Of a stretch of 45,968 nt of DNA, positions 655 through 45,948 are shown one piece after another. Both the position numbers and the translations under genes were made by a program. Each line of letters begins with the position of its first letter. Position 1 is the stretch's first letter. The stretch spans positions 1 to 45,968 of the IMG/VR virus record IMGVR_UViG_3300011432_000011, one strand, 5' to 3'. Source of the DNA: a virus. Below the pieces are notes generated by a model that had not been told where the DNA came from, did no database searches, and was given only the letters and a program-made list of their open reading frames with translations.

Positions 655-1629
655 TCATCCCTTCCTCCCTGTCGGTAGCAACTCAGCCCGCCGCGCTTCC
701 TCGTTGATGATCGTGTGCGTGTATCTTGCAACCGATTTCTTGTCCTTCCACGCCCCTGTCGCGATCAGGCTTTGCTCGTCGGCCCCGGCATATCGTCGCA
801 TCCAAGTTGCGTAGGTGTGGCGGAAGATGTGGAAGGCTGACCGTTCGGATAGGTTAACCCCGGCCTTGAACGCCGCCACTCGAAGAAGATGATAGAGATG
901 GCCGCCCTTGGCGTATCGATACACCTTGGACTTCCCACGTCTGTCCAGTGTCGCCATCGCATCCACGGCCACTTGTGGGAGAAAGACAGGACGTGGGTCG
1001 TCGTTCTTTGTGTCCGGTAAATAAGCATAACCGTCCTTTAGCCTCACGTTTTCCCAAGTCAGGTTCAAAGCTTCACTCAACCTCATCCCCGTGTAGCAGA
1101 GCGTGACGAGGAGCGCCCGGAACTCCGGGTCGAGCTTTTCCGCTTCCGCGAAGATCGCTTCGGCTTGTTCGGGCCAGAGCCAGGCAGTTTGACTGTTACC
1201 GCTAGACCGTCGAGGTCTACGTAGGTTAAGTCGATGTCCGCCATGAGACACAATCGCGCTAATTGGCGTGTAGACTTGTCGATTGCGCGTTGCGTCGCTG
1301 GCGAGGGGGTAGAGTTTGGCGGCCATATCGTCGATGGCCGTTTGATTGATTTGCGAGATGGGCCTGTCACCGAAATGCTCCAATAGCTTTTTGAGGAACC
1401 GTCTATCCCCGCCCGCCTTCATGTAGGCCGCCGCTGCCCCGGCAAAGGTAAGCTCTCCCGGCTGGCTAAACTCCCCCCGCTCAATCTCTCTCTCCCATTT
1501 CGCAACGACCCGGAGGGCAATCGCTCGCTTGCTAGCCTTAGTGCTTCGGTTAATGAACTGTCCGAGGTACGTCCCACGACCACGGAAGAACGGCGTATAA
1601 CGGTTCGGCGCGAGTAATTTGATGGGCAT
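655..1629 (-). CDS. int: Tyrosine recombinase / phage integrase
   Basis: This 324-aa protein catalyses site-specific recombination between attP and the host chromosome. The N-terminal part (about 1-90) is a SAM-like core-binding domain. The catalytic domain shows the first arginine in YTGMRLSEALNLTW (about 182-195), the H-x-x-R box in FHIFRHTYATWM (about 267-278) and the nucleophilic tyrosine in VARYTHT (about 302-308), so it looks active. It is the last gene of the leftward early operon and lies next to the tRNA-Thr attP core. The ATG at 1629 lies inside the preceding HTH gene, giving a 211-base overlap in another frame. Confidence 0.95.
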   Translation of the reverse strand: MPIKLLAPNRYTPFFRGRGTYLGQFINRSTKASKRAIALRVVAKWEREIERGEFSQPGELTFAGAAAAYMKAGGDRRFLKKLLEHFGDRPISQINQTAIDDMAAKLYPLASDATRNRQVYTPISAIVSHGGHRLNLRRPRRSSGNSQTAWLWPEQAEAIFAEAEKLDPEFRALLVTLCYTGMRLSEALNLTWENVRLKDGYAYLPDTKNDDPRPVFLPQVAVDAMATLDRRGKSKVYRYAKGGHLYHLLRVAAFKAGVNLSERSAFHIFRHTYATWMRRYAGADEQSLIATGAWKDKKSVARYTHTIINEEARRAELLPTGRKG

Positions 1630-9645: not shown

Positions 9646-9864
9646 GTGGCTGAAAACATTACTAAAATCAAATCCCTGGCGCGGGCTTACACCGAAAAGG
9701 CCATTGAAACGCTAGGGGGCATCATGTCTCAGCCGTCATGCCCTGAAAGTGCGCGCGTTGCAGCAGCCCAGGCATTGCTCGACCGCGGCTGGGGCAAGCC
9801 GACTCAACCCCTCAGTGGCGACGAAGATGGTGCCCCCATTGCAATCACTTGGCAGAAAGACTGA
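9646..9864 (+). CDS. Candidate terminase small subunit-like protein, 72 aa
   Basis: This GTG-started protein (AGGGGT upstream) has a conserved-looking block: KSLARAYTEKAIETLGGIM, then ARVAAAQALLDRGWGKPTQP. Short proteins with this block are commonly coded at the head of packaging operons in proteobacterial phages, so a small-terminase or packaging-accessory role is plausible. It is shorter than typical TerS proteins, and no HTH is obvious. If correct, TerS and TerL are separated here by 7.6 kb. Confidence 0.55.
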   Translation: MAENITKIKSLARAYTEKAIETLGGIMSQPSCPESARVAAAQALLDRGWGKPTQPLSGDEDGAPIAITWQKD

Positions 9865-11185
9865 GCCTAAAACTGTATTGGCTCACGGCTGTTTCGATGT
9901 GCTGCACTTGGGACACAAGCGGCACCTCGAAGAAGCCAGAAGCTTAGGCGACCGTCTTGTTGTCTCGATCACGCCTGACCACTTGGTCAACAAGGGGCCG
10001 GGCAGGCCGGTGTTCAACGCGGACGAGCGCCGCGAGATGTTGTTATCGCTTGATTGCGTTGATGAAGTGATTATCGCGCCGGGCCCCACGGCCAAGGCGT
10101 CGATTGAGCTGATTAAGCCTGATGTGTACGTCAAGGGCGTTGATTACGCGGACAGCGACAATATCCACCACATTGACGACATCAGGGCGCAAGAGGCGCT
10201 AGGCGGTACGGTCCACATCACACGGACGGCCAAGTGGTCAAGCTCACGAATCATCAACTCTGAAAGGCTGAGCGACGAAGCCAATGCATATCTTGAACGC
10301 GCTCGTAGTCGTATCGGATTTGGTAATATCAGTGACGCTTTCAATCGCGCTGATGATCTTCGCCTACTCTTTGTGGGCGAGACAATCATCGACGAGTATC
10401 GCCCGGTTACAGCGCTCGCCAAGCCAAGCAAAGAGTTCATCCTCGCGACCGTTGAAGCCAAAGAGCCAGAGCAATTTCTAGGCGGTGTTAGGGCGGCCAG
10501 CCTCCATGCTGACTGGGCAAATGTCCAGGTCATCACCGATGATGGCGAGTCGATCCACAAGACCCGCTATGTCGATGCCGACTTCGGCAAGAAGCTATTC
10601 GAGGTTTACAACAAGACGAGGTTAGAGCTAGGCGCACACCAGCGGCAGTCCTTCATGGACAAACTGGCTGAGGCGCAGGCTGATGTTGTTGTGGTGTTTG
10701 ATTTCGGCCACGGCTTGATTGATGCCGACGCAAGGAAAGACCTGAGAGCGCTGGGCGGGTTTCTAGCAGTCAACGCACAGACCAACGCGGGGAACTATGG
10801 ATTCAATCCGGTTTCAAAGTATCAGGGCGCTGATTTGGCTTGCGTTGATCTGCCTGAAGCTCGGCTATCGGTTGGCGAACAATACGCGGGAGCCGATCAA
10901 CTCGCCGGACAACTTGGATTCGACAGGGTTATCATCACGGCTGGTCGCTATGGATCGTATTGCCCACAGCATGTGCCTGCTTTCGGGAACCGCGGACTGG
11001 ATACGATGGGGGCGGGTGATGCGTTCCTGGCAGTCGCCGCCCCTCTCATCGCCGCTGGACTCGATACCGAGGCGGCTACATTCGTAGGCAACGTGGCCGG
11101 CGCCCTGAAGACCGAGATTGTCGGGCACCGCAGGCATGTCAGGCGGGACGAGCTTCTTCAAGCAGTGGAGGGACTTCTAAAATGA
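9827..11185 (+). CDS. HldE-like bifunctional enzyme: nucleotidyltransferase then PfkB-type sugar kinase
   Basis: Residues about 17-150 form a cytidylyltransferase-fold domain: AHGCFDVLHLGHKRHLEEA with the HxGH motif, a central YVKGVDY, and a WSSSRIINS motif. Residues about 185-452 form a ribokinase/PfkB domain: LLFVGETIIDEYRP, LGGVRAASLHADW, and the ATP/anion-hole motif DTMGAGDAFLA near the end. The same two domains make HldE (RfaE), which phosphorylates heptose-7-phosphate and adenylylates heptose-1-phosphate, but there the kinase comes first. The start is uncertain: ATG at 9827 overlaps the previous gene by 38 bases and has no good ribosome binding site. A GmhA-like isomerase two genes on supports heptose chemistry. 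Confidence 0.8.
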   Translation: MVPPLQSLGRKTEPKTVLAHGCFDVLHLGHKRHLEEARSLGDRLVVSITPDHLVNKGPGRPVFNADERREMLLSLDCVDEVIIAPGPTAKASIELIKPDVYVKGVDYADSDNIHHIDDIRAQEALGGTVHITRTAKWSSSRIINSERLSDEANAYLERARSRIGFGNISDAFNRADDLRLLFVGETIIDEYRPVTALAKPSKEFILATVEAKEPEQFLGGVRAASLHADWANVQVITDDGESIHKTRYVDADFGKKLFEVYNKTRLELGAHQRQSFMDKLAEAQADVVVVFDFGHGLIDADARKDLRALGGFLAVNAQTNAGNYGFNPVSKYQGADLACVDLPEARLSVGEQYAGADQLAGQLGFDRVIITAGRYGSYCPQHVPAFGNRGLDTMGAGDAFLAVAAPLIAAGLDTEAATFVGNVAGALKTEIVGHRRHVRRDELLQAVEGLLK

Positions 11186-11346
11186 CGGAAAACTTTGACT
11201 GTTGGCCGCACATCAGCCCGCAGCTTGCCGATCCAAACACGCCATGGAAGAGGATTGAACTGGAGCGCCGGGCAAAAATGCACCGCCTCATGGCCGAACA
11301 GAGGGCGGCTAGGCTTGGCGAAGAGTTGTATGCCCGAGCCGCATGA
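11182..11346 (+). CDS. Small helical protein in the sugar cluster, 54 aa
   Basis: The ATG at 11182 overlaps the upstream stop (ATGA), and the stop overlaps the next start (ATGA), so it is coupled at both ends. The sequence opens TENFDCWPHISPQLADPNTP and continues in an Arg/Glu/Ala-rich helix. No family recognised. The placement between the kinase fusion and the isomerase suggests a partner in the pathway. Confidence 0.6.
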   Translation: MTENFDCWPHISPQLADPNTPWKRIELERRAKMHRLMAEQRAARLGEELYARAA

Positions 11347-11837
11347 TCGACGACGAAGACTTCCCTGATGTCCTCCGCGCGGTCGAACTCTGCAACGGGG
11401 CCAAGCACGATAAGCGCCGGTTCTTCTTCATCGGCAATGGCGGATCAGCAGCCATCGCTAGTCACATGGCCGCGGACTGGCTGAAGAACGGCAACGTTGC
11501 CGCTCAGTGCTTCAACGACCCGGCGCTGATGAGCTGCATAGCCAACGACCTTGGCTATGAGAACGTGTTCGCCAAGCCGCTGTCCTTGCATGGCGGGCAG
11601 CGAGATGTGCTATTCGCCATATCCAGCTCAGGGCAGTCCAAGAGCATAACCCGCGCCGTCTGGGTTGCCAGCGGGCTACGCATGAAGGTGATAACCCTGT
11701 CGGGGTTCAAGCCTGACAATCCGCTGCGGAAGATGGGCGAGATAAACTTCTATGTGCCGTCAGATCGCTACGGCGAGGTTGAGATTGCACACCACACGAT
11801 CTGCCACGGAATACTGGACCGGGTGATAAACATTTGA
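11343..11837 (+). CDS. gmhA: GmhA-like phosphoheptose isomerase (SIS domain)
   Basis: This 164-aa protein is one SIS domain. It shows FFFIGNGGSAAIASHMAADW (about 27-46), the phosphate-binding SSSGQSKS (about 92-99) and a C-terminal EIAHHTICHGILD helix. GmhA converts sedoheptulose-7-phosphate to D-glycero-D-manno-heptose-7-phosphate, the first step to ADP- or GDP-heptose. It is somewhat shorter than chromosomal GmhA (about 190 aa), mainly at the N-terminus. It starts with an ATGA overlap. Another sugar-phosphate isomerase specificity is possible. Confidence 0.85.
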   Translation: MIDDEDFPDVLRAVELCNGAKHDKRRFFFIGNGGSAAIASHMAADWLKNGNVAAQCFNDPALMSCIANDLGYENVFAKPLSLHGGQRDVLFAISSSGQSKSITRAVWVASGLRMKVITLSGFKPDNPLRKMGEINFYVPSDRYGEVEIAHHTICHGILDRVINI

Positions 11838-12059
11838 GTTGCGAAACCAAAGTTCGGCGAGGGGGAAGCCCCGCTACTGCACGAACCGCCCATGCAAGCG
11901 GGCTCAGTAAGCAGCGCTGGTCTTTGGGGTGGTGCCGGCTGGAGTACAAGGCCACACGCCGCGAAAGCGGAACAGACCCCGCGATCAAAAGTGGGGAGGA
12001 TGGGGGACGGAAAGCCCGTCCCGGTCGGCACCACTTCGCATTTGATAAGGACCGGGTGA
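11838..12059 (+). ncRNA. Candidate structured RNA inside the sugar cluster
   Basis: An outer helix pairs GTGGTGCCG (11929-11937) with CGGCACCAC (12026-12034) and can extend with wobbles. It encloses three hairpins: CCGC-GAAA-GCGG (11959-11970, a GNRA-type tetraloop), CCCCGC/GTGGGG (11977-11996) and GGGACGG/CCGTCCC with a 5-base loop (12004-12022). Upstream are GGGG-GAAG-CCCC (11861-11872) and a GCCC/GGGC hairpin. No reading frame here is convincing. One, with TTG at 11834 (TTGA overlap), gives 79 Arg/Gly-rich residues; another continues the isomerase frame past its stop without a start codon. I favour RNA, but a small coding gene is not excluded. Confidence 0.4.
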
Positions 12060-12062
12060 TTG

Positions 12063-12263
12063 ATGGACGATAAGGCCCTTCACGTCACCGTAAGCTTTGG
12101 CCCCGGCATCCCCCACAGCCTTCAAGGCCCAGCGCTGTTGGAGTTCGAGCGCACTCTACGCAAGCTATCGGATGGCCTCTGGGTAGAAGTCTTCAAGCAA
12201 TTGAAGGGCGACGACAGCAAGCTGCGGAACATGATGACGGCGGCAGAAAGGGCGAAGCTGTGA
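12063..12263 (+). CDS. Hypothetical protein in the sugar cluster, 66 aa
   Basis: The ATG at 12063 (a TTG lies 3 bases upstream) opens a soluble protein with HVTVSFGPGIPHSLQGPALL followed by a helix LEFERTLRKLSDGLWVEVFK. No family recognised. Its stop overlaps the GTG start of the cupin gene (GTGA), so it is coupled to it. Confidence 0.6.
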   Translation: MDDKALHVTVSFGPGIPHSLQGPALLEFERTLRKLSDGLWVEVFKQLKGDDSKLRNMMTAAERAKL

Positions 12264-12766
12264 AGCATTACGCCAAGACGCCAGACGATGACGCCGCGAT
12301 GGTTGGCAAGGCCATCCCCAAGCCAACCGATCAGCCGCTCGATTACACCGGCTTGATGGTCAAGAAGCCCTGGGGCTTTGAGTTCCAGGTGTTTGATAAC
12401 GGGGTTTGCTCGATCTGGGTTGCCTGTCTAAAGCCCGGTCAGGCGGTGTCGATGCACTGCCACATGACCAAGAAGGCAATGTTTGTTCCCCTCAGTCCTG
12501 GCGTGACATTCCGAACATTACAGGGGGCAGAACCCCTGAACGACACGTTCTCGGTTGATCGCGGTGTCATCCACAGCCAGGAGAACAACACCGACCAAGA
12601 CGCTTACTTCCTCGAATACGAATGGCCCAGCAACAAGGCCGATCTGGTTCGACATTCCGACCGCTATGGCAGAGAAGCCAAGGGCTATGAGGGCGCTACT
12701 GAGATGGTCCCGATGACCACGGCGATCCCTGAGATTTTCATGGACATGATCCGGAAGGTGGCCTGA
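12260..12766 (+). CDS. Cupin-fold protein, sugar-phosphate isomerase-like
   Basis: This 168-aa protein (GTG start in a GTGA overlap) is a single cupin. VKKPWGFEFQVFDNG (about 34-48) recalls the KPWG(Y/H)E motif of mannose-6-phosphate isomerases. LKPGQAVSMHCHMTKKAMFV (about 56-75) supplies a metal-binding H-x-H, and VIHSQENN (about 101-108) supplies a further His. This makes sugar binding or isomerisation likely. The substrate is not visible; its neighbours act on sugar phosphates or nucleotide sugars. Confidence 0.7.
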   Translation: MKHYAKTPDDDAAMVGKAIPKPTDQPLDYTGLMVKKPWGFEFQVFDNGVCSIWVACLKPGQAVSMHCHMTKKAMFVPLSPGVTFRTLQGAEPLNDTFSVDRGVIHSQENNTDQDAYFLEYEWPSNKADLVRHSDRYGREAKGYEGATEMVPMTTAIPEIFMDMIRKVA

Positions 12767-13113
12767 TGGCAAAGGGCTACTGGATCGCGCGCCTGGATGT
12801 GTCCGACGTTGAACAATACAAATCATACGTTAAGGCCAATGCTGAAGCCTTCGCCAAATACGGCGCGAAGTTCCTGACCAGGGGCGGCCCGTTCGTATCT
12901 GTTGAGGGTAAGCCTCGAGAGCGCAACGTCATTCTAGAGTTTGAAAGCCTCGAGCAGTGCAAGGCCTGTTACTTCTCTGAAGAATATCAGAGGGCCTTGA
13001 AGATGCGGGAAGGCATTGCGCTCTCGGACATTGTCTTGATGGAGGGCTATGACGGCCCGCAACCGCCAGAACAGCCAGAGGAAGCAGCACGGGTGAATAG
13101 TGGATTTCATTGA
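12766..13113 (+). CDS. DUF1330-family protein
   Basis: This 115-aa protein matches the ferredoxin-like DUF1330 pattern: AKGYWIARLDVSDVEQYKSY at the N-terminus, AKYGAKFLTRGGPFVSVEG in the middle and VILEFESLEQCKACYFSEEY. DUF1330 proteins are small dimeric alpha-beta proteins of unknown or enzyme-assisting function. It starts in a TGATG overlap with the cupin and overlaps the radical SAM gene by 14 bases, so it belongs to the same translation unit. Confidence 0.8.
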   Translation: MAKGYWIARLDVSDVEQYKSYVKANAEAFAKYGAKFLTRGGPFVSVEGKPRERNVILEFESLEQCKACYFSEEYQRALKMREGIALSDIVLMEGYDGPQPPEQPEEAARVNSGFH

Positions 13114-14245
13114 CCACGTTTCCGAGGCGCCGGTTGGCGGTTCGGTTTATGACTTGCTGCTCGATCACACCAAGATCAGTTGGTATCGCGACAGGGTTGA
13201 GGCTTGGAGGCGCGGTGAACGTATCGCCCCAGTTACAATGGACGTGGCATGGACGCGTCAGTGTAACGCGGCCTGTGTGTTCTGCGCTGCTACCACGCAA
13301 GCCTCGGATGGTGGCGGCAAGATCACACAGAAGATCGCTTATGAATATCTGGAGGACGCAGCCGAGATCGGCGTCAAAGGCATTAGCCTTATCAGCGACG
13401 GTGAATCCACGGTCGTCCCCTGGTACGAGGAATCCATAGAATACGCCGCCAAGCTCGGCATCAAGATCGGCATTGGCACCAACGGCGTTCGGCTCAAACG
13501 AAAGGTGCTCGAGCGCATCCTTCCACACGTCTCATATCTGCGATTCAACTTCTCCGGTGGAGAACGCGAGCGCTACAAGCAGATCATGGGGCTGAAGGAT
13601 CGCGACTTCGATCAGGTTATCCAGAACGTCAAGGACGCGATGGAAATCAAGCGGGCGAATAATCTGTCCGTGAACGTGAATATCCAAATGGTCTTGATGC
13701 CCGACATGGGCGACCAGATCATGCCGTTTGCTCAGCTCGGCAAGGAGCTTCGCCCAGACTATGCCATCATCAAGCACACGGCAGACTCCAAGGACGCCGG
13801 GCTTGGTGTGGACTATAAGAAATACGATGCACTCTACGATACCCTGAAGGAAGCTGAGCAGCTAAGCGACGAGGGCTATCGCGTTGTAGTTAAGTGGGCG
13901 CGGTTGAAAGACGAAGGCAAGCGCGACTATCAGCGCTGCTATGGTCCGCAGTTCCTTTTGCAGGTTTCTGGCAATGGATTGGTTGCCCCGTGCGGCCAGT
14001 TATTTCAGGAGAAATACAAGAAGTTCCACGTCGGGAACATCTGCACCGAGCGGTTCAAGAAGATTTACCAGTCAGACCGTTACCTAGAAGTCATGCAATA
14101 CCTGGGCAGCGATGACTTTGACGCTCAGAAGAACTGCGGGCCGAATTGCTTGCAGACGCTGACGAACTCATGGCTTGATAAATACGTCAAGGGCACCGTG
14201 CAGTTCTCGAATACACCGATGCCCGTTCACGCGGAGTTCCTTTGA
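13100..14245 (+). CDS. Radical SAM enzyme with SPASM-like C-terminal cysteines
   Basis: This 381-aa protein has the iron-sulfur motif C55-x3-C59-x2-C62 (RQCNAACVFCAA) that binds the [4Fe-4S] cluster and SAM, then a TIM-barrel-like body with LISDGESTVVPWYEE and IGIGTNGVRL. The C-terminal third has CYGPQFLLQVSGNGLVAPCG and CGPNCLQ, typical of SPASM or twitch auxiliary clusters. The GTG start at 13100 lies within the DUF1330 gene. Such enzymes carry out radical chemistry on peptides, sugars or cofactors. Here the neighbours suggest a sugar, for example epimerisation or dehydration, but this is inference. Confidence 0.85.
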   Translation: MDFIDHVSEAPVGGSVYDLLLDHTKISWYRDRVEAWRRGERIAPVTMDVAWTRQCNAACVFCAATTQASDGGGKITQKIAYEYLEDAAEIGVKGISLISDGESTVVPWYEESIEYAAKLGIKIGIGTNGVRLKRKVLERILPHVSYLRFNFSGGERERYKQIMGLKDRDFDQVIQNVKDAMEIKRANNLSVNVNIQMVLMPDMGDQIMPFAQLGKELRPDYAIIKHTADSKDAGLGVDYKKYDALYDTLKEAEQLSDEGYRVVVKWARLKDEGKRDYQRCYGPQFLLQVSGNGLVAPCGQLFQEKYKKFHVGNICTERFKKIYQSDRYLEVMQYLGSDDFDAQKNCGPNCLQTLTNSWLDKYVKGTVQFSNTPMPVHAEFL

Positions 14246-15927
14246 ACGTCTCGGAATACATCGCGCAATTCTTTGCCGACAAGCTCGCCCCCTGCCGCGC
14301 TTATGGCGTGTCTGGTGGCGCGGCGATGTATCTCAACGACGCCATTTGCCACCATCCCGGCATCGACTTCACGGCGATGCACCATGAGCAGGCGGCGGCG
14401 TTTGCTGCGGAGGCAGACGCTAGGGTTAGTAATAAGCCGGCTATTGTTCATGTGACGGCTGGGCCTGGCGTTACCAATGCCATGACGGGCGTTGCTTGTG
14501 CATATGCTGACTCTCTGCCGATGATTGTGATTGCGGGGCAGGTGGAAAGCCGGACGCTTAACGAGGGTGGTGTTCGTCAGCTTGGTATAAGTGAAGTTGA
14601 CGGCGTTGCGTTGATGAAGCCCATAACCAAGTTCGCCGTTACAGTGTTGGACCCGGAGGATATTCGTTTCCATCTTGAACAGGCGCTCTACTGGGCGACC
14701 GAGGGTCGCAATGGGCCGGTCTATCTGGAGATCCCGCTGGATGTGCAGCGGGCCGTGGTGCCGGACGATTTAGAGGGCTATCCGTACACGTACAACCGCT
14801 CACTCAAGGGCTATTTTGGCAAGGACGGCGTGCTTGATCTGCTTCATCAATCACAGCGTCCTGTTATTCTGATCGGCAACGGCGTCAGGCTTGCTGGCGC
14901 GGATGTCGAACCACTGACCGAACTCGGCATCCCGATCCTTTGCTCTTGGAGCGGGGCTGACCTGATTTCCACCAAAGAACCGAGCTATATCGGGCGCCCC
15001 GGTCTGATCGGTGATCGGGCCGGGAACTACGCGATCCAGAATGCCGATGTGATCCTCGCGATTGGGACGCGGCTATCAATCCCGCAGATCGGCCACGCCA
15101 CCGAACTGTTTGCTAAGAATGCGAAGCTGATCGTAGTTGACATTGACAAAGCGGAGCTAGCCAAGAAAACCCTCCGCGTTGATGTCCCGATCCATGCCGA
15201 TGCCAAAGAGTTTCTCGACCGCTTCTATAGGCGGGTTAAACGGCAACTCTGGGGTGACTGGCTGGAACTATGCCAGGACATGCGGGATCATTTCCCGGTC
15301 GTAGACCTGAACACCAAACCGGACGGTGTTCAGGTTTATGGCTTTCTAAAAGACTTGGCTGAGGTGATTGACGACGACGCGATCATCGTCACTGACGTAG
15401 GTCAGACGTTTGTTTGTACCCACCAAGCCATGCCGATGACCGGCAGACAACGGATGTTCCACTCGCCAGGTATTGCCCCGATGGGCTACGGCCTGCCTGC
15501 CGCTATCGGGGCCTGCAAGGCTGGCGGGGGCCGACAAGTCATCTGTCTGACCGGCGACGGCGGGACGATGTTCAACCTTCAGGAGTTGCAGACCATCGTT
15601 CACCATAAGCTGCCGATCAAGATATTCATCTATGAGAACGGCGGCTACAAGACGATGCAGACCACGCAGGGCAATCACTTTCATCGTGAAAGCGTATCGA
15701 GCCCCGAGTCCGGCGTTAGTTTTCCCGACTTCCAACTGATCGGAGAGGCTTTCGGGATCATAAGCTATTACAATTTCCATCCTGAATATGTGGGAGACGA
15801 CGGCCCGGCTATATTTTATCTTGAGATCGACCGCAGCCAAGTCATAGCGCCGCTGGTCAAGACCACGATAGAGAATGGAGAGTTTGTGGTCCCGCCGCTC
15901 GATCAGATGTGGCCCAAGGTTGCATGA
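14242..15927 (+). CDS. ThDP-dependent enzyme, acetolactate synthase-like
   Basis: This 561-aa protein has the full three-domain ThDP architecture: the N-terminal PYR domain with the activating Glu49 (MHHEQAAAFAAE), a middle domain (VILIGNGVRLAGAD), and a C-terminal PP domain with the ThDP/Mg motif from GDGGTMFNLQEL to NGGYK (about 438-468). It starts with TTG in a TTGA overlap with the radical SAM gene. Relatives decarboxylate 2-keto acids and transfer the two-carbon unit. In yersiniose synthesis such an enzyme (YerE) adds a two-carbon branch to a keto-sugar. In this cluster a carbon-branching role is attractive but unproven. Confidence 0.85.
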   Translation: MNVSEYIAQFFADKLAPCRAYGVSGGAAMYLNDAICHHPGIDFTAMHHEQAAAFAAEADARVSNKPAIVHVTAGPGVTNAMTGVACAYADSLPMIVIAGQVESRTLNEGGVRQLGISEVDGVALMKPITKFAVTVLDPEDIRFHLEQALYWATEGRNGPVYLEIPLDVQRAVVPDDLEGYPYTYNRSLKGYFGKDGVLDLLHQSQRPVILIGNGVRLAGADVEPLTELGIPILCSWSGADLISTKEPSYIGRPGLIGDRAGNYAIQNADVILAIGTRLSIPQIGHATELFAKNAKLIVVDIDKAELAKKTLRVDVPIHADAKEFLDRFYRRVKRQLWGDWLELCQDMRDHFPVVDLNTKPDGVQVYGFLKDLAEVIDDDAIIVTDVGQTFVCTHQAMPMTGRQRMFHSPGIAPMGYGLPAAIGACKAGGGRQVICLTGDGGTMFNLQELQTIVHHKLPIKIFIYENGGYKTMQTTQGNHFHRESVSSPESGVSFPDFQLIGEAFGIISYYNFHPEYVGDDGPAIFYLEIDRSQVIAPLVKTTIENGEFVVPPLDQMWPKVA

Positions 15928-16577
15928 TTAAGCTGGACACGTCCGAGCGTCACTTCTGGGAACCCGATCCAAGGATTATCAAGGCGCTGTGCGATCTCAT
16001 CCCGCAGGGCGCCAAGGTTCTAGAGATTGGCCCGGGGGCCACTCCATTCCCCCGCGCACAGGTGCTGGTGGACATCAAGGACTTCGGCAAGGGCCTCAAG
16101 ACCGTTAATTGCGACTGCAACACTGAGCGGCTGCCCTTCAAGGACAAGGAATTCGATTTCATCTACGCCCGGCATGTCCTCGAAGACATGTGGAATCCAT
16201 TTAACTTGATGAAGGAAGCGAGCAGGGTTGCTAAGTCCGGTTATTTTGAGACGCCCTCCCCGTTATGTGAGTTCTCAAGGGGCGTTGATGCCGGCGAGAC
16301 GCAATGGCGCGGTTACAATCATCACTTTTGGCTGATCTGGCCGCATAAGGGTGTGCTGAACTTCCTGGGTAAGTTCCCGCTGATCGAGTTTGTCAGCGGC
16401 GCTGAGGAAGACAACCTGAAACTACTCCGGAGCGGGCACCGCATGTGGAACACAAGTTTCCACTGGGTCGGTGAGGCCAAGTTCAAGCATGTGCAGTGCC
16501 CGCAGGATTATCACTTGCCGCATCAATACCCCGGCGCGATTTTGACCGCGATTGAGGAATGGAAGGCCGCTGCTTGA
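15924..16577 (+). CDS. SAM-dependent methyltransferase-like protein
   Basis: This 217-aa protein starts in an ATGA overlap. It has class I methyltransferase motifs: AKVLEIGPGATPFP (motif I, about 30-43), VLVDIKDFGKG (acidic residue, about 48-58), LPFKDKEFDFIYARHVLEDM (about 70-89) and a KEASRVAKSGYFETPSP segment. The C-terminal part, rich in Trp and His (GYNHHFWLIWPHKG), probably shapes the substrate pocket. It most resembles Methyltransf_11 proteins in glycan clusters. The substrate is likely the sugar built by its neighbours. Confidence 0.75.
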   Translation: MIKLDTSERHFWEPDPRIIKALCDLIPQGAKVLEIGPGATPFPRAQVLVDIKDFGKGLKTVNCDCNTERLPFKDKEFDFIYARHVLEDMWNPFNLMKEASRVAKSGYFETPSPLCEFSRGVDAGETQWRGYNHHFWLIWPHKGVLNFLGKFPLIEFVSGAEEDNLKLLRSGHRMWNTSFHWVGEAKFKHVQCPQDYHLPHQYPGAILTAIEEWKAAA

Positions 16578-17524
16578 AGCTTGTCATATCGCTGGCGACA
16601 CGCGGCAGGCCAGAGCAACTAGTAGAGACGGTCACGAAGACGGCTGCCAACCTGGTACTACCGAACACCGAATACATTATCCAGGTTGACGAGGACGACA
16701 AGCCGACAATCGACTTACTGAGCCGGGTTCCGCTAGACAAAAGGGTTAAGGTGAATGTCGGACCAAGAGAAGACACCATCGCCGAAAAGTGGAACCGCGC
16801 CCAAGAAGAAGAAGCCGACGTGTACATGTCGGCAGCAGACGACGACCCCTTCACCACCCACGGATTTGACGGAAAAATTCTCGATGCTGCCAGTCTCTTT
16901 CCAGACGGAATTGGGGTTGTTTATGGGCATCTTGCTAACGCAAGTTTCCCCTGCGCTGCTGGATGGACCCGAAAGTGGGTCGATCAACTAGGCTATATCT
17001 TCCCTGAGTATTTCCCGTATTGGTTTGTCGATCACTGGACCGACGACCTAGCCAGGATCACCGGGCGGATTTCTGTTGCAGACGTTCGCACCGATCAGAG
17101 CAAGGTCGGCAAGACGCAGGAAATGCGCGAGCCGGGCTGGTGGGCATCCTGGTTTGATGCCGCTCACCTGATCAGGCGCAAAGAGGCGTTCAAGATCATT
17201 GACGCGCTGGACGAACCCCAGTGGCGCAAGGAGATGCAGAAAAGCACTCATCCCATCGTTGAGTACCGCTCGAGATGGATCAATGACGGGGTGAGAAGGC
17301 AGAACGAGCAGCTTAGCAATTGGTCGGGCCTTGATAACACCGATCCTCGATATGTGAGATTGCGCGACAAGGCCGTCGCGATGATCCCCGAGCTTCTTGA
17401 TGGGATGGACCCGATAGAAGCGACGAAATACCGGATGCAACTTCTGATCCCGCGCCTGATAGATGGGGCGTGGGACCATGATGAGGATCGAATTAACGCG
17501 GTTCTGAAACAGTGGCCATTGTAA
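16574..17524 (+). CDS. Glycosyltransferase, GT-A fold
   Basis: The TTG at 16574 overlaps the methyltransferase stop (TTGA) and gives a 316-aa protein that opens KLVISLATRGRPEQLVET, the usual start of GT2-like enzymes. Acid-rich motifs IIQVDEDDKPT (about 36-46) and YMSAADDDPF (about 76-85) fit the nucleotide-sugar and metal-binding site. FPYWFVDHWTDDLARITGR (about 142-160) is a plausible acceptor or catalytic region. It is the last gene of the cluster and overlaps the large terminase start by 13 bases. It would transfer the product sugar; the acceptor is unknown. Confidence 0.7.
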   Translation: MKLVISLATRGRPEQLVETVTKTAANLVLPNTEYIIQVDEDDKPTIDLLSRVPLDKRVKVNVGPREDTIAEKWNRAQEEEADVYMSAADDDPFTTHGFDGKILDAASLFPDGIGVVYGHLANASFPCAAGWTRKWVDQLGYIFPEYFPYWFVDHWTDDLARITGRISVADVRTDQSKVGKTQEMREPGWWASWFDAAHLIRRKEAFKIIDALDEPQWRKEMQKSTHPIVEYRSRWINDGVRRQNEQLSNWSGLDNTDPRYVRLRDKAVAMIPELLDGMDPIEATKYRMQLLIPRLIDGAWDHDEDRINAVLKQWPL

Positions 17525-18804
17525 TCCCCTACAAGCCGCGACCGCAGTTCAAGCCGTACCACGAAAGGACCGAACGCTACGCCAAGCTCGTCGCCCACAG
17601 ACGGGCCGGAAAGACCGTTTGCTGCATCAACGACAAGATTAAGCAGGCGCTGACCAATACGCGGGCGTTCCCGCCGCCGAGATATTCCTACATCGGGCCA
17701 ACGCTGGTTCAGGTGAAGGATGTGATGTGGGGTTATCTGAAGCACTACAGCGCACCGATCCCCGGCATCAAGAAACACGAAAGCGAATTGTGGATCGAGT
17801 ACCCCAACGGAGCGCGTATACGCCTCTATGGGGCCGAGAACTATGAGGGGATGCGCGGCGGCTACAACGATGGGGTAACCATCGATGAGCCAGCCGAGAT
17901 TGATCCGCGCGCTTGGCCGGAAGTCATACGCCCGACGCTTTCAGACTATCGGGGCTGGGCAACATTCATTGGCACCCCGAAAGGAAGGAATTGGTTTTAC
18001 CACGTTGACCGGAAGATGGTCGGCGGCAAGCCAACTGATGAACTGGACGATGATTTCTTCCGGCTCACGCTGAAAGCCAGCGAAACCGGGATTCTTGACG
18101 GACATGAATTGGAGGACGCTAAGAAGCGTCTAACCCCAGACCAATACGAGCAGGAATACGAGTGCTCATTCGATGCGGCCATCCTCGGCGCTTACTACGG
18201 CAAGCTGATGGGGGCGGCAGAGAAGGACGGGCGCATTTCCGGCGTTCCGTATGAGCCGACCGCGCGGGTCTGGACGTTCTGGGACTTGGGTATTCGTGAC
18301 GCAACCGCGATCTGGTTCGCGCAAGTGGTCGGCAGGGAAATCCACCTGATCGACTACTACGAAATGACGGGGGCCGATCTTGGCCACTACGTCAAGGAAC
18401 TGAATACAAAGCCCTACGTCTATGCTGGACACATTGTCCCGCATGACGCGCAGGCCAAAGAACTCGGAACTGGAAAAAGTCGTCTTGAGGTTATGGAAAG
18501 CCTTGGGATGCGCAACATCACAGTGGCGACGATGCATCGGGTCGAGGACGGTATCAACGCAGTTCGCACGATCCTCCCGCGATGCTGGTTCGACGCCAAG
18601 AAGTGCGCCAGAGGCATCGACGCGATGAGGCTCTATCGAGCCGAGTATGACGAAAAACTGCAAACATTGCGACCGACACCACGCCACGACTGGGCGAGCC
18701 ACGCCGCCGATGCGTTTCGATACGGTGCAATGATGATAGACGGCACAATGGATCAGGGCGCATTCGGTCGCAACATCAAATATCCCCCAATGGGTTACGC
18801 TTAA
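17512..18804 (+). CDS. terL: Terminase large subunit
   Basis: This 430-aa GTG-started protein is the packaging motor. The N-terminal ATPase has a Walker A variant HRRAGKT (29-35) and a Walker B region DGVTIDEPAEI (about 120-130). The C-terminal RNase H-like nuclease begins with WTFWDLGIRDATAIWF (about 254-269) and includes further acidic residues, ending HDWASHAADAFRYGAM. The start lies within the end of the glycosyltransferase gene, so the packaging gene is coupled to the sugar cluster. The portal follows immediately. Confidence 0.9.
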   Translation: MAIVIPYKPRPQFKPYHERTERYAKLVAHRRAGKTVCCINDKIKQALTNTRAFPPPRYSYIGPTLVQVKDVMWGYLKHYSAPIPGIKKHESELWIEYPNGARIRLYGAENYEGMRGGYNDGVTIDEPAEIDPRAWPEVIRPTLSDYRGWATFIGTPKGRNWFYHVDRKMVGGKPTDELDDDFFRLTLKASETGILDGHELEDAKKRLTPDQYEQEYECSFDAAILGAYYGKLMGAAEKDGRISGVPYEPTARVWTFWDLGIRDATAIWFAQVVGREIHLIDYYEMTGADLGHYVKELNTKPYVYAGHIVPHDAQAKELGTGKSRLEVMESLGMRNITVATMHRVEDGINAVRTILPRCWFDAKKCARGIDAMRLYRAEYDEKLQTLRPTPRHDWASHAADAFRYGAMMIDGTMDQGAFGRNIKYPPMGYA

Positions 18805-25388: not shown

Positions 25389-26345
25389 ATGGCTGTCGAT
25401 GCCGGTACCTTCCTGACGTACTCCGCGATTGGTAATCGCGAAGACCTGGAAGATGTTATCTACAATATCGACCCGACTGACACTCCGTTTGTTTCGGGTG
25501 TTGGCAAGACCAAAACTGCCGCCACACTCCACGAATGGCAGACGCAAGCCCTCGATGCGGTGAACTCTACTAACTCCGTGCTCGAAGGTGACGATGCGGC
25601 GACCGACACGCTGGTTGCGACCGTCCGTCTCGGCAACTACCACCAGATTTCCGACAAGGTAGCTCGCGTTGCGGGCACCCAGCGGGCGGTGGATCATGCT
25701 GGACGCGACGATGAGCTTGACTACCAAGTCGCGCTCAAGGGCAAGGAACTCAAGCGCGATATGGAAACCATCGCGCTGCGTAACCAGGCCCGCAATGCGG
25801 GCGCTCCCGGTACGCCTCGTGCGACTGCTGCGGTGTTGAGCTTTATCTACACCAACACCAGCAAGGGCACCAACGGTGCCGATCCGACCTCCAGCCCTCC
25901 GGGCTCGGGAACCAGAACGGACGGCTCTGCCCGTGCGTTCACCGAAGCTCAACTGAAGACCGTTCTTCAGTCGTGCTGGAACAACGGCGGCGACCCTGAC
26001 ACCATCATGGTCGGCGGCTTCAACAAGCAGCAGTTCTCGACCTTCACGGGTCGCGCTACTCCGATGGAGCAGGCCACCAGCCGCAAGATTGTGGCTGCGG
26101 TCGATTACTACGACTCCGACTTCGGCAAGCTTGAGGTGGTCGCTAACCGCTTCCAGCGTCCGACCGATGTTCTCGTCCTGCAAATGGACATGTGGAAGAT
26201 CGGCACCCTTCCGGGCCGCAACATGGCTTCGCTCCCGCTCGCCAAGACCGGCGACTCGGATCGTCGTCAGTTGCTCACGGAATGGACCGTTGTCGCCGGA
26301 AACCCGAAGGCCAACGGCGGCGTATTCGACGTTACCAGCGCCTAA
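25389..26345 (+). CDS. Major capsid protein, SU10/DUF5309 type
   Basis: This 318-aa protein has the N-terminal motif NREDLEDVIYNIDPTDTPF (about 17-35) and HEWQTQALDAV typical of the DUF5309 (SU10-like) HK97-fold capsid family. Within it lie NYHQISDKVARVAGTQRAV and KGKELKRDMETIALRN. It follows the scaffold by 16 bases with a strong ribosome binding site (AAGGA). A Ser/Pro/Gly-rich loop (about 158-175: ADPTSSPPGSGTRTDGS) may be exposed and is a possible attachment point for sugars. Confidence 0.9.
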   Translation: MAVDAGTFLTYSAIGNREDLEDVIYNIDPTDTPFVSGVGKTKTAATLHEWQTQALDAVNSTNSVLEGDDAATDTLVATVRLGNYHQISDKVARVAGTQRAVDHAGRDDELDYQVALKGKELKRDMETIALRNQARNAGAPGTPRATAAVLSFIYTNTSKGTNGADPTSSPPGSGTRTDGSARAFTEAQLKTVLQSCWNNGGDPDTIMVGGFNKQQFSTFTGRATPMEQATSRKIVAAVDYYDSDFGKLEVVANRFQRPTDVLVLQMDMWKIGTLPGRNMASLPLAKTGDSDRRQLLTEWTVVAGNPKANGGVFDVTSA

Positions 26346-26354
26346 AGGAGACTT

Positions 26355-27239
26355 ATGCCAGATGTGATCCCGACCGCTCTATCAGCGGACGAACTTAATA
26401 AACTCGCCATTGATCAAGGCATCGTTGAGAAGGACGAAGCACCACCAAAGCGACGAATATGCATGGCGGTACTTTCCTACACCGGCCAGCTCTTTATGCG
26501 GACGCACATGTGTCTCATGACTTCGGTCATGCAGTGCGCCGCGCAGGGCTGGGAGGTTAGCTTTGTCCATCGAGACGGTGATTCGATGGTGGCTCGTGGT
26601 CGCAACTATCTGGCATCTCAGTTTCTGGAAAACCCACAACTCGCCACTTCAACCGATCTGGTCTTTATCGACACAGATTTGGCTTGGGATGGAGACGAGT
26701 TTGTGAAGTTGTGTTCGCATCCCGTCGATGTCATCGGTGGGGCCTATCCCTACAAGGATGAAAGCGGAAACTTTCCACTCCGCTGGCCCCCCGATGGCTT
26801 GATGGAAGAAAACGGCCTTTGGCAAGTCGATGCCGTCACTCCTGGGTTCATGCGGGTAACCCGCAGCGCCCTTCAGAAGATGGCCAATCAGATGCCGTGG
26901 CTGCAATACAAAGACGGCCCAGACAAGGACGGCCAGCGAAGCTGGATGTTCTTTGACAATCTGCAACGCACAACTGGCGTTTACGACGAGGGCTATGTCT
27001 TTTGCGAGCGCTGGCGAACGCTTGGCGGGAAAGTCTGGCTCGATCCCGACATGAATATCACCCACATCGGAAACAAGGCGTACAACCACGGAACATTACG
27101 CCAGTGGCTAGACCGAAAATCAGCAACCGTAGACCGGCTGGAATCCGAATTCCCAGGGGTCCCTCCGTTGAAGCTCGTTGCAGCCGCTGTGAGCGGCGAC
27201 ATGAGCGAGCTGGAAGCTGAAAAGGCGTCAGCCGCATAA
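26355..27239 (+). CDS. Glycosyltransferase directly after the capsid gene
   Basis: This 294-aa protein has AVLSYTGQLFMRTHMCLM at the N-terminus (about 37-54), DLVFIDTDLAWDGDEFV (about 100-116) with a DxD motif, a VIGGAYPYKDE segment and a C-terminal DEGYVFCERWRTLGGKVWLD (about 213-232). The order fits a GT-A glycosyltransferase-like fold. It begins 9 bases after the capsid stop with AGGAG upstream, so it is expressed with the capsid. A plausible function is glycosylation of capsid or decoration proteins, as reported for some other phages; the acceptor cannot be read from sequence. Confidence 0.75.
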   Translation: MPDVIPTALSADELNKLAIDQGIVEKDEAPPKRRICMAVLSYTGQLFMRTHMCLMTSVMQCAAQGWEVSFVHRDGDSMVARGRNYLASQFLENPQLATSTDLVFIDTDLAWDGDEFVKLCSHPVDVIGGAYPYKDESGNFPLRWPPDGLMEENGLWQVDAVTPGFMRVTRSALQKMANQMPWLQYKDGPDKDGQRSWMFFDNLQRTTGVYDEGYVFCERWRTLGGKVWLDPDMNITHIGNKAYNHGTLRQWLDRKSATVDRLESEFPGVPPLKLVAAAVSGDMSELEAEKASAA

Positions 27240-33203: not shown

Positions 33204-34409
33204 ATGGCTGGAATATTTGACAACATGGGCTACGGCTCCGGATTGATCGGTCAAGAGGGCGGGTTCCTCGGCAACAATCGCAATGCGATGATTGCGGCTG
33301 GGCTTGGCCTCGCGAGCGGAAACAACTGGAGCGAGGGCGCCACGAACGCCTTCAAGGGTTTTCTCGGCGGGCAGACTGCAGACCAGAACCAAGCGGCGCT
33401 TCGCGCGGCGATCCCGCACATTATGTCACGCGAAGACCTCGACCCTGCCGTTAAGGCAGCGATCATGCAAAATCCCAACTTGGCAGTTCCTTATTTGACG
33501 GCGATGGCTAAGCCGCCCGAATATAAGCCGTTCAGCCAAGAACAGTCCTTCGGCAACTTTAATCCGCAGACTGGCAGAACCAATGTTCAGGGGTCTGTGC
33601 CGAAACTGATGGACGTTCAGCCGGGACATCGCATCGACGCGATACAGCCTCCGACACCACAGCCAGCCCAGCCTTCCATGCCTGGGGCGCCGTCTTTCAA
33701 CAATCGTTTTGTAGGGGCGTCAACCCCGATGGCGACAGGCGGGCCAGAGAAGCCGCCAGCCGGGTCGCAGTGGGATAATCCCGCTGCTGGACCCTCTGGT
33801 GGGGCATCGCTGATAAAGGGCACCCCGCAATACCACGAGCACGTCAATAAACTAACCGACGACTTCCGGGCCGATCCGTCCGTGAAGCGATGGCATAAGG
33901 TCGCGCCGATAATGCCATCTATTCGAGAGGCGAGGGATACCGCGGGCGGCGCCGCGGACATCAATATCATCTATGGCATGGCTACGATCATGGACCCGGA
34001 TTCGGTGGTGCGTGAAGCGGAGCAGATCATGGGCCGCAAGTCTGGCGGTCCACTTGAGTCACTTCAGGCTCTTGAGTCGTGGGTTAAGTCCGGTCAGATT
34101 TTAACACCAGAAGTTAGAAACAGACTAATTGACCAGATGGAAAGCCGCGCGAAATATATGCAGAAGGCGAACGACTCGGCAATGAAAAGCTATAATTCGA
34201 GAGCGAAAATCCTTGGGGCCAACCCTAACGATATTTTCTATCTCCCGGAGATGTATGACGGACCTGGCATCGCGCCGCCCCCGAACCCCAATCACAGTAG
34301 AAACTTCGGCGGCGAGATTCTCAGCGTCGCAACAGTGGACGCCGCAAGGAAGCTGCCCAGCGGGTCCAAGTTCCGCGATCCAAACGGCATAGTTAGGCAA
34401 GTGCCGTGA
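33204..34409 (+). CDS. Internal virion/DNA-ejection-type protein, 401 aa
   Basis: The N-terminus (about 1-45) is Gly-rich with a possible membrane-active segment (NAMIAAGLGLASGNNWSEG). A Pro/Gln-rich middle and a helical C-terminal part (about 215-330) follow. It lies between two other proteins of the ejection type. I recognise no catalytic motif. Confidence 0.6.
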   Translation: MAGIFDNMGYGSGLIGQEGGFLGNNRNAMIAAGLGLASGNNWSEGATNAFKGFLGGQTADQNQAALRAAIPHIMSREDLDPAVKAAIMQNPNLAVPYLTAMAKPPEYKPFSQEQSFGNFNPQTGRTNVQGSVPKLMDVQPGHRIDAIQPPTPQPAQPSMPGAPSFNNRFVGASTPMATGGPEKPPAGSQWDNPAAGPSGGASLIKGTPQYHEHVNKLTDDFRADPSVKRWHKVAPIMPSIREARDTAGGAADINIIYGMATIMDPDSVVREAEQIMGRKSGGPLESLQALESWVKSGQILTPEVRNRLIDQMESRAKYMQKANDSAMKSYNSRAKILGANPNDIFYLPEMYDGPGIAPPPNPNHSRNFGGEILSVATVDAARKLPSGSKFRDPNGIVRQVP

Positions 34410-35761
34410 GTGAGTGGGACGCATTTCCGGCTGTCCAGCAGAATGAGTGGGATGCTTTTCCTGCCGTTCAGCAGAGTGCCCTTTCGCAGCCGAAGGAGAA
34501 GTTCGGGTGGGGTGACACATGGCCCGCGAAGATAGCCAAGGGCCTTTTTAGCGGATTTACGCTGCCGGGTGACGTGTTGGCTGGCAAGGCCCAACTCCCA
34601 TCGGCGGGCGGCATTCCAGGCTCCGTGCCATTCGGCGATCCGAATAGCGCGGGCGAGCGTGTTGGCGATCTTGCCGCGATGGCATCTCCTATTAGCCCGG
34701 TATCGCGCGCTGGGGCCGGGTGGGCCGGTGTCGTGCCCCCGCCGAAAGAATTGGCGCGGTTGCCCGCTCCGACTAAGGACAGTCTACTAAAGACCGGAGG
34801 CGCACAGAAAGAGGCGGCGACTGCTGTTCCGCACGAACCCTTCCATCCTGAATTGATGAAGGCGTTTGCGGACAACACCAAACAAGTGATGAACCCCAAG
34901 CGGGAGAGGGTCGCCCCGCAGACGTTTGGAATGGTTGATGACATTGCCAAGGACGGCGCGATTGCTGACCTGAGTGTTACCCGGGAACTGCTCGGTGAAA
35001 TCGCGCAATCCGTGGACCGCAAGGAACGCCGCGCTGCCACCATTGCCATAAAGGAAATCGACAAATTCCTATCGCGCAATGAACCCGCCGCCGCCGGTCT
35101 GCTGGAAAAGGGAAATGCTAATTATGCGGCTGGCAAGCGCTTGCAGCAACTTGAAGAACTAGACGCAATCGGTGGACTGCGGACGGGTCGTGCTAATTCT
35201 GGCGGCAACGAGGTAAACGTTCGACGGCAGTTGGTTTCCCCGATTGTTGAGAAGGCCATCAAAGGAAACAGCAAGGGATATTCCAAGGACGAAATCGCTG
35301 CGCTGAATGGGTTTGTTAAGGGGACGCCCGGCCTGAATACATTACGCACCGCTTCGCAGCTGGCCCCATCGAAGCACGGCCTCACATTCGGTTCGCCGGT
35401 TTCGCTGTTGAGCGGCGGTGCATCGCTTGCAGTCGGTGCCGGGGCAAATAAACTCGCCGCACTCCTGACAAGGAACCAGTACCAGAAAATCATGGACCGT
35501 GTCGCCAAGCGGTCCCCAGCTTACACCGAGGCTCTCAGCAAGGCGACTGATCGTTATCTCGCGGCGGCGCAGGACTTCAGCACTCAACCCACCCCCGCCA
35601 AACTCGCCGGCATGGTCGCCGCCTCCCGCGCTTTGTCCAGCGGACTCAGGCACGACGGCGTGAGCATCAGTTCCGGCGATCTTCTGAGGTCGATACAAGG
35701 CCCAGTAAAGAGCGCCGCCGAAGGCGATGAGCCATCCGTTCCAGGGGGCCCAGGCCAGTAA
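34406..35761 (+). CDS. Large virion protein with EWDAFPAVQQ repeats, 451 aa
   Basis: GTG start in a GTGA overlap. The N-terminus carries two tandem copies of EWDAFPAVQQ, a motif type that in ejection proteins precedes the main chain. A segment SRAGAGWAGVVPPPKELAR follows, then a mainly helical body and a Gly/Ala-rich hydrophobic stretch (SLLSGGASLAVGAGANKLAA, about 334-353). It is probably the third ejection protein. It ends at a strong terminator. Confidence 0.65.
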   Translation: MSEWDAFPAVQQNEWDAFPAVQQSALSQPKEKFGWGDTWPAKIAKGLFSGFTLPGDVLAGKAQLPSAGGIPGSVPFGDPNSAGERVGDLAAMASPISPVSRAGAGWAGVVPPPKELARLPAPTKDSLLKTGGAQKEAATAVPHEPFHPELMKAFADNTKQVMNPKRERVAPQTFGMVDDIAKDGAIADLSVTRELLGEIAQSVDRKERRAATIAIKEIDKFLSRNEPAAAGLLEKGNANYAAGKRLQQLEELDAIGGLRTGRANSGGNEVNVRRQLVSPIVEKAIKGNSKGYSKDEIAALNGFVKGTPGLNTLRTASQLAPSKHGLTFGSPVSLLSGGASLAVGAGANKLAALLTRNQYQKIMDRVAKRSPAYTEALSKATDRYLAAAQDFSTQPTPAKLAGMVAASRALSSGLRHDGVSISSGDLLRSIQGPVKSAAEGDEPSVPGGPGQ

Positions 35762-44667: not shown

Positions 44668-45948
44668 CTAGGCGGCCCTGACTAGTTCGATCCGGCGCCC
44701 GAGCCAACGCATCGCGTTCACCGCCATACTATTCCCAAGCGCCTTGTAGCGCGGCCCGTCTGCGGCCGGCTTGTTGCGGATCTGAATGTCGGTGTATCCG
44801 TCAGGGAAGCCCTGTAGCCGCTCGCACTCGACCGGCATCAGGCGGCGCACGGCCCAGCCCTGAAGGGTATAAGGAGCGGCGACCGCCTGCGGCACTGTCC
44901 GCGCCTCTAGCGTGTAGGCTGCGCCATCCGTTCTGATGCCCGCGCCGTCAGGCCCCGCGCTGGGGTTCTCGCAGACGGCGCGTTCCTGAATGGCGATGAT
45001 GTTAACGTCATCCTCTTGCCGCCGCCCGGCATAGCCGCCCTTGCCGGCGCTCTCTGCGCCACGGGTGAGGGATGCGGCAACCACTGGAACGATGGGCGTC
45101 CCGCGCCCCGTGCCGTCCTCGGATGCGTCGAAGCCGTCAGCCTTCAGGCTGTGCGCCACCATCGTCTCGGTTTCATAGTCGATGCGCCCCATGCCGCCGG
45201 CATTGAGGCAATGCGCTATGTCGCCGGTTGATGCGATTAGCCCGCCATCGCAGTCGAAGTCGGTTCCGAGTCCCCCACCGCCTGTAGGGCGTGCGCTAAT
45301 TGTTGGGGCAAGTCCTTCCCCCGTTTGTCGGCGCGGCGCAGAATGCCCTTGCAGGCTTTCGCGCTCAAAAAGTACCGCCGCGGCACGTCGCCAGTCACCA
45401 AGATGTCCGACAACGAAGACACGCCTTCGTCGCTGGGGCACTGCTCTGGCAAGGCCGTCCACTCGGACGTATTGAGCGTCAAGCACTCGCCAGGCCGCAT
45501 GATACCCGAGTTGCTCCAACCCTCCGATGAAGGAACCAAAGTCCCGTCCTCCGCTGGATGACAAGACGCCGGGGACGTTCTCCCAAACCAGCCACTCGGG
45601 CCGATAGCGGTCAGCGATCGCAAGATAGGTAAGGGCGAGGTTCCCCCGTGGGTCATCAAGTCCTTTGCGAAGTCCAGCGACCGAGAAGCTTTGGCACGGG
45701 GTTCCTCCGACGAGAACATCGAAATTTGCATCCGGCCATTCCTTGAAGTTGTTGATGTCGCCAAAGTTCGGAACGCCGTTCGACAACTTCCAAGGCTCGT
45801 CGGGCATGTTTGAACCGTAGTGGTGAGCCAGCACAGCGGAGGGGAACCTCTCGACCTCGGCAAAGCCAACGGGCGTCCAGCCCAGCGGGTGCCACGCAAC
45901 CGTGGCCGCCTCGATGCCGGAACAGACCGAGAGATAAGTGGCAGTCAT
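44668..45948 (-). CDS. C5-cytosine DNA methyltransferase (orphan)
   Basis: This 426-aa protein has all main motifs: I (VCSGIEAATVAW, about 8-19), IV with the catalytic Cys (VGGTPCQSFSVAG, about 80-92), VI (WLVWENVPGVLSS, about 119-131), VIII (QRRRRVFVVG, about 171-180), IX (MPVECERLQGFPDGY, about 378-392) and X (ALGNSMAVNAM, about 406-416). The target recognition part (about 200-370) is long. No restriction enzyme gene is beside it, so it is probably an orphan that protects phage DNA from host restriction or alters gene expression. It runs across the contig junction into the left terminal repeat. Confidence 0.95.
   Translation of the reverse strand: MTATYLSVCSGIEAATVAWHPLGWTPVGFAEVERFPSAVLAHHYGSNMPDEPWKLSNGVPNFGDINNFKEWPDANFDVLVGGTPCQSFSVAGLRKGLDDPRGNLALTYLAIADRYRPEWLVWENVPGVLSSSGGRDFGSFIGGLEQLGYHAAWRVLDAQYVRVDGLARAVPQRRRRVFVVGHLGDWRRAAAVLFERESLQGHSAPRRQTGEGLAPTISARPTGGGGLGTDFDCDGGLIASTGDIAHCLNAGGMGRIDYETETMVAHSLKADGFDASEDGTGRGTPIVPVVAASLTRGAESAGKGGYAGRRQEDDVNIIAIQERAVCENPSAGPDGAGIRTDGAAYTLEARTVPQAVAAPYTLQGWAVRRLMPVECERLQGFPDGYTDIQIRNKPAADGPRYKALGNSMAVNAMRWLGRRIELVRAA

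Follow-up and report, generated by a model that had tools for sequence, protein, structure and literature searches.

A heptose-type sugar cassette between the terminase genes of an uncultured tailed phage and its possible role in virion glycosylation

The window analysed here comprises a complete IMG/VR record (IMGVR_UViG_3300011432_000011; 45,968 bp) from a tailed phage, in which a block of ten mostly overlapping, plus-strand genes (positions 9827-17524) lies between a gene for a 72-residue protein resembling the small terminase subunit (TerS) and the gene for the large subunit (TerL). Coordinates below refer to the plus strand of the window unless stated otherwise. The TerS candidate (9646-9864), the left border, matches phrog_15261 (7e-11) and phrog_10899 ('terminase small subunit', E = 0.048); the family match is weak, and the small-terminase reading draws on the gene's position and its conservation beside TerL. 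The right border, TerL (17512-18804), was identified by tblastn to annotated terminases, for example that of Rhodoferax phage P26218 (48%). A search of IMG/VR with TerL returned 80 relatives, and in all 24 in which the TerS-like gene could be detected, 0-268 bp separate its end from TerL downstream; the distance in the window is about 7.65 kb. The block is therefore an insertion in the window phage, as a first-pass annotation made from the sequence alone had proposed. Two records from other metagenomes (L082 and L001) are 100% identical to the window across the block, the junction with TerL and the stretch from TerL to the portal gene, so this region is not chimeric, while the left junction, with the TerS-like gene, was observed in the window only. 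The base composition of the block is that of its flanks.

The first gene of the block (9827-11185) encodes an HldE-like protein matching PF01467 (CTP_transf_like, 8.6e-18) and PF00294 (PfkB, 1.8e-8). The nucleotidyltransferase domain is N-terminal (residues 19-143) and the PfkB kinase domain C-terminal (333-430), the reverse of classical HldE, and positions 336-470 of NF008454 align with residues 10-145. The catalytic motifs of both domains are present, HxGH as HLGH at 27 and GAGD as GAGDAF at 395. A 54-residue open reading frame (ORF) follows (11182-11346), which matches no family, is 100% identical in L082 and overlaps each neighbour by ATGA. The next product is a GmhA-like sugar-phosphate isomerase (11343-11837; Pfam SIS_2, 5e-11), which has the SIS fold and phosphoheptose isomerases as its closest relatives, including the nearest solved structure (1tk9, E = 9.5e-17).

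Beyond the isomerase lies the gene for a conserved 67-residue protein (12060-12263), whose alignment shows the motif GDDSKLRxxMTxEQRxKL and whose profile finds a match in every cassette phage locus scanned. Its structural model is a folded beta-alpha-beta domain (pLDDT 83), and Foldseek with this model gave no significant match. Since it is homologous to the C-terminus of a 374-389-residue protein, with no function assigned, that is encoded just upstream of bacterial relatives of the cassette's radical S-adenosylmethionine (SAM) enzyme, we read the protein from its sequence as a probable partner domain of that enzyme. The radical SAM/SPASM enzyme itself, part of the cassette core, is encoded at 13100-14245 (Pfam radical SAM, 7.1e-17; SPASM, 7.3e-7, exceeding the cut-off), and its CX3CX2C cluster motif is invariant across 21 phage sequences. 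A viperin-like defence function was considered for this enzyme and rejected, at 42 bits against a cut-off of 180. Two accessory genes lie between the 67-residue protein and the radical SAM enzyme, one for a cupin-like protein (12260-12766; a weak match to Pfam Cupin_2, E = 0.076) and one for a DUF1330 protein (12766-13113; PF07045, 6.3e-32).

The remaining three genes encode a single-chain thiamine diphosphate (ThDP) enzyme of the ILVB/JanthE-like type (14242-15927), a SAM-dependent methyltransferase (15909-16577; PF08241, 3.6e-8) and the glycosyltransferase GT1 (16559-17524; phrog_14945, 7.9e-9), in which alignments show a conserved ADDDP motif. The ThDP enzyme contains the three Pfam domains of its family (about 1e-27 to 1e-29), a GDG..N motif and a candidate catalytic glutamate, and its closest solved structure is JanthE (8rph, E = 5.3e-105). 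Where unsaturated, the ratio of nonsynonymous to synonymous substitution rates (dN/dS) of cassette genes against the related record L083 is 0.08-0.35, indicating purifying selection and hence maintenance of these genes.

Pfam and PHROG matches place all eight products named in the first-pass annotation where it had put them on the plus strand, and the overlaps it listed (ATGA, GTGA and TTGA) are present, together with others of 13-19 nt, among them a 13-nt overlap of GT1 with TerL. Its description of one coupled block agrees with these overlaps, but it had missed the two small genes, and a 222-nt gap at 11838-12059, between the GmhA-like gene and the gene for the 67-residue protein, interrupts the coupling. 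The gap holds no convincing gene, a scan of the whole window against Rfam gave no match there or elsewhere, and promoter and terminator scans gave hits near chance level. The overlaps had also been taken to show late expression; they indicate translational coupling and not timing.

Searches with the radical SAM and HldE-like proteins identified the same cassette in about 24 other contigs from uncultured phages. The recurring set comprises GT1, the swapped-order HldE-like protein, the GmhA-like isomerase, the 67-residue protein, the radical SAM enzyme, a ThDP enzyme, the methyltransferase and a second glycosyltransferase, GT2; the HldE-like, GmhA-like, 67-residue and radical SAM proteins form the core, with GT1, the methyltransferase and GT2 as frequent additions. 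The cupin-like and DUF1330 genes are confined to the window, L083 and L106. In a second phage lineage the cassette lies between the portal gene (phrog_1216) and the major head protein gene (phrog_371) in all 11 records with both. Within the lineage of the window, L087 (major capsid protein, 48%) has the cassette directly upstream of TerL, and in L034 (major capsid protein, 78%) a ThDP enzyme pair immediately precedes TerS. The cassette thus recurs in related phages, as the earlier annotation had suggested checking, but only the window phage has it between TerS and TerL; phrog_2 detected TerL in only three of 19 cassette records, which prevented a wider scoring of where the terminase genes lie. 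None of the isolate phages in INPHARED carries the set, with five distant matches to the radical SAM enzyme and none to GT1 or the 67-residue protein, and a search of phages with the ThDP enzyme gave mainly acetolactate-synthase-like matches of about 32% or less, many in bacterial-looking records. No description of the cassette was found in the literature.

Several individual loci depart from the common arrangement. L091 and L111 encode the two HldE-like domains in separate genes, and the kinase half alone was seen in L109. In L106 an HNH-endonuclease gene (12391-13005 of that record; PF13392, 1e-15) lies within the cassette and is possibly a homing-type mover. L113 (CAIZGQ010000073.1), filed as a Rhizobiales metagenome-assembled genome, contains the whole cassette together with portal and major head protein genes; it resembles a phage or prophage, a hint that the host is an alphaproteobacterium. 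Four relatives found through TerL (L035, L036, L037 and L038) carry extra unidentified genes between TerL and the portal gene, which makes this interval another site for cargo in the group.

The ThDP step occurs in two forms that replace one another. Among 22 sufficiently complete cassette loci, seven encode the single-chain enzyme, 14 a short E1alpha/E1beta pair (PF00676 and PF02779) and none both (P = 4.7e-5, an approximate value since related loci are not independent); the bacterial loci comprise 10 with the single-chain form and 43 with the pair, with one overlap. The step is thus conserved by replacement. JanthE couples aldehydes to ketones (PMC12188165), and according to a review the YerE-like and alphaKADH2 families branch keto-sugars (PMC12247030). 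The two cassette types resemble these two families, the single-chain enzyme the YerE-like and the E1alpha/E1beta pair the alphaKADH2, and with its three ThDP domains, ThDP motif and closest solved structure the window enzyme fits the YerE-like/JanthE type. From this correspondence and from JanthE as nearest structure we infer a C2 branch, so that the activated sugar is probably C2-branched. A transketolase role, yielding sedoheptulose phosphate, is less likely because ILVB-type relatives use 2-oxo acids.

GT2 is encoded outside the block, at 26355-27239, starting 9 nt downstream of the gene for the major capsid protein (MCP; 25389-26345; phrog_1328, 8e-99), which is a candidate acceptor. D106 and D108 of its DxD motif are invariant, and its AlphaFold model (pLDDT 76) matches STIV A197 best (Z 16.1 over 162 residues), other matches being lysyl hydroxylase LH3, collagen hydroxylysine glycosyltransferases, Mnn9 and mimivirus R699; the PBCV-1 capsid glycosyltransferase is also among the Foldseek matches. 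By its modelled fold and DxD motif, GT2 is a GT-A enzyme. In other phages, relatives of GT2 form the last gene of the cassette. In L031, which is related to the window phage (MCP 73%, portal 62-67%), GT1 and GT2 are fused in a single 611-residue ORF that starts 61 nt past the capsid gene, the halves matching at 46% and 61%. L010, whose record name derives from IMG taxon 2617270741, has a further GT2 relative (16444-17199) downstream of the capsid gene. Glycosyltransferase genes thus lie among virion genes, as expected for phage virion glycosylation, in three settings: GT2 behind the MCP gene, the L031 fusion and the 11 cassettes between portal and MCP genes.

A radical SAM profile seeded with the phage sequences detected 286 bacterial stretches, from which the best 80 were fetched; other bacterial relatives may have been missed. 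Within these 80, which include the phage contig L113, an HldE-like gene lies within 10 kb of the radical SAM gene in 60 and a GmhA-like gene in 33. The bacterial counterparts span several phyla and include Pelagibacter and Azospirillum, and no published description of the product of their pathway was found. In a tree of 101 radical SAM proteins the 22 phage sequences form one clade (support 100/99), separated by a long branch from the 79 bacterial sequences, which contradicts a recently acquired bacterial operon, the outcome that the first-pass annotation had named as fatal to its proposal. Its broader description of a heptose- or nucleotide-sugar-type cassette is supported.

We favour, with moderate confidence, a reading in which the cassette and GT2 constitute a phage-resident pathway for an activated, heptose-derived sugar that GT1 and GT2 would attach to a protein of the virion, either that of the capsid or a different one. 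In this pathway the GmhA-like isomerase would convert sedoheptulose-7-phosphate to heptose-7-phosphate, and the swapped HldE-like enzyme would phosphorylate the product and activate it with a nucleotide, the 7-phosphate being removed by a host phosphatase. The radical SAM enzyme, with its 67-residue partner, may oxidize or otherwise activate one carbon, probably to a ketone, onto which the ThDP enzyme would transfer a C2 unit from pyruvate to give a branched higher sugar. The methyltransferase would cap this sugar, and GT1 and GT2 would transfer it, while the head is being assembled, to the MCP or a different virion protein. For this pathway we infer the substrate order, nucleotide, product, protein target and timing. 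The virus particle is the most likely site of attachment because unrelated phages also carry the cassette amid their capsid genes. The earlier preference for a virion modification over a lysogenic trait therefore stands as the best reading, on the capsid-gene neighbourhood in two lineages and the GT1-GT2 fusion, whereas DNA, which it had listed among the targets, is unsupported.

Several observations weigh against this assignment. The window encodes an integrase (655-1629, minus strand; PF00589, 3.9e-19), so the phage is probably temperate and the cassette may have a lysogenic role. The 11 portal-to-MCP cases may reflect common ancestry in a single lineage, and in the stretches examined L031 has GT1 and GT2, and L010 has GT2, without the cassette. 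The HldE-like protein scores 110 bits against the NCBIfam equivalog cut-off of 521 (NF008454) and the GmhA-like protein 75.6 bits against 209 (TIGR00441); given these low scores and the reversed HldE domain order neither is classed as a true HldE or GmhA, and the sugar may be something other than a genuine heptose. No phosphatase gene was recognised in the cassette of the window.

The main rival is conversion of the host surface, in which GT1 and GT2 would add the sugar to lipopolysaccharide or capsule and so hide receptors from competitor phages or the phage's own progeny. The integrase is compatible with such a role, YerE-like enzymes make O-antigen sugars (PMC12247030), and in the bacterial loci scanned the nearest radical SAM, HldE and GmhA relatives cluster with epimerases and DegT aminotransferases of the kind usual for surface polysaccharides. 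In two lineages, however, the cassette sits within head-morphogenesis genes and not beside integrase or lysis genes, the GT1-GT2 fusion follows directly behind a capsid gene in L031, and Pfam and PHROG scans recognised no flippase, polymerase or membrane-anchored transferase in the cassette, although no specific search for these was made. We regard host-surface conversion as unlikely, if still a serious contender.

Heptose nucleoside antibiotics offer a comparison for a further reading, a diffusible heptose-derived metabolite or cofactor acting on host or competitors, and radical SAM/SPASM enzymes often modify small proteins encoded alongside them, so that a modified peptide derived from the 67-residue protein could serve in the same way. 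Conservation of the 67-residue gene directly or nearly directly upstream of the radical SAM gene fits the latter, but the protein, a predicted folded domain whose homologue forms the C-terminal part of a larger bacterial protein, is more like a partner than a precursor peptide; the set also travels with two glycosyltransferases, and no export genes were noticed, making a diffusible product improbable. Phages glycosylate hydroxymethylated bases, and the cassette adjoins packaging genes, as might be expected of a sugar placed on phage DNA to block restriction; GT2, however, resembles protein glycosyltransferases and adjoins the capsid gene, and the annotation of the window genes, which is not exhaustive, revealed no enzyme that hydroxymethylates bases, and we consider DNA hypermodification very improbable. 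Least probable of all is a recently captured bacterial operon without a phage role, or an assembly chimera: homologous enzymes occur in bacteria, but the separate phage radical SAM clade, the identical copies in other metagenomes, the composition shared with the flanks and the purifying selection all speak against it.

Glycosylating mycobacteriophages reportedly rely on host nucleotide sugars, whereas the window phage would also bring its own genes to produce and tailor the donor sugar. Their virion proteins are modified by phage-encoded glycosyltransferases, sometimes with a methyltransferase (Freeman et al. 2023, doi 10.1016/j.chom.2023.05.028, as cited in PMC13313380); the window phage shares both gene types and would use them on virion proteins too. 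Giant viruses (Megavirinae and PBCV-1) likewise glycosylate their capsids or fibrils autonomously, with a virus-encoded nucleotide-sugar pathway and glycosyltransferases clustered together, and the modelled fold of GT2 resembles PBCV-1 and mimivirus glycosyltransferases, but the window is a 46-kb record from a tailed phage, and heptose-type, radical SAM and ThDP chemistry is not described for giant viruses in the excerpts of PMC10117803 and PMC4691112. The single-chain ThDP enzyme belongs to the same family as the YerE-like enzymes and JanthE, and the E1alpha/E1beta pairs of other cassettes resemble alphaKADH2 (PMC12247030, PMC12188165); the precursor here would differ in being a heptose derivative, with a ketone possibly supplied by the radical SAM enzyme, and the phage E1 subunits, judged by sequence, are short. 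As in the ADP-heptose pathway (GmhA and HldE), the cassette has an isomerase, a PfkB kinase and a nucleotidyltransferase with catalytic motifs, but the domain order is swapped, scores fall far under the cut-offs, and no phosphatase or epimerase was recognised in the cassette. The nucleotidyltransferase and heptose genes of cyanophages such as S-SM2 and P-SSM2 encode a related nucleotidyltransferase domain, but matches cover 21-33% of the query in all those listed and lack the radical SAM cassette.

Elsewhere in the window, a C5-cytosine DNA methyltransferase is encoded at the right end of the record (44668-45948, minus strand). Residues 176-349 of a 451-residue protein (34406-35761) match phrog_21712 'major head protein'; the gene lies far from the true capsid gene, and the match is possibly a surface domain shared with a major head protein.

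Few examples of phage virion glycosylation are known, and the modification is linked to antibody recognition. Tentatively, and with less assurance than the assignment to the virion, we propose that tailed phages own a tailoring pathway, built on the radical SAM enzyme and either ThDP type, for an undescribed C2-branched, methylated higher-carbon sugar that decorates capsids, a pathway that may have been phage-resident for long enough to become a lineage of its own and may have moved between unrelated phage types. If this is correct, the cassette would represent a new sugar pathway in which radical SAM and ThDP enzymes act on a heptose-type precursor, and small phages would control their own surface chemistry independently of the host through a phage-owned donor-sugar pathway comparable to those of giant viruses.

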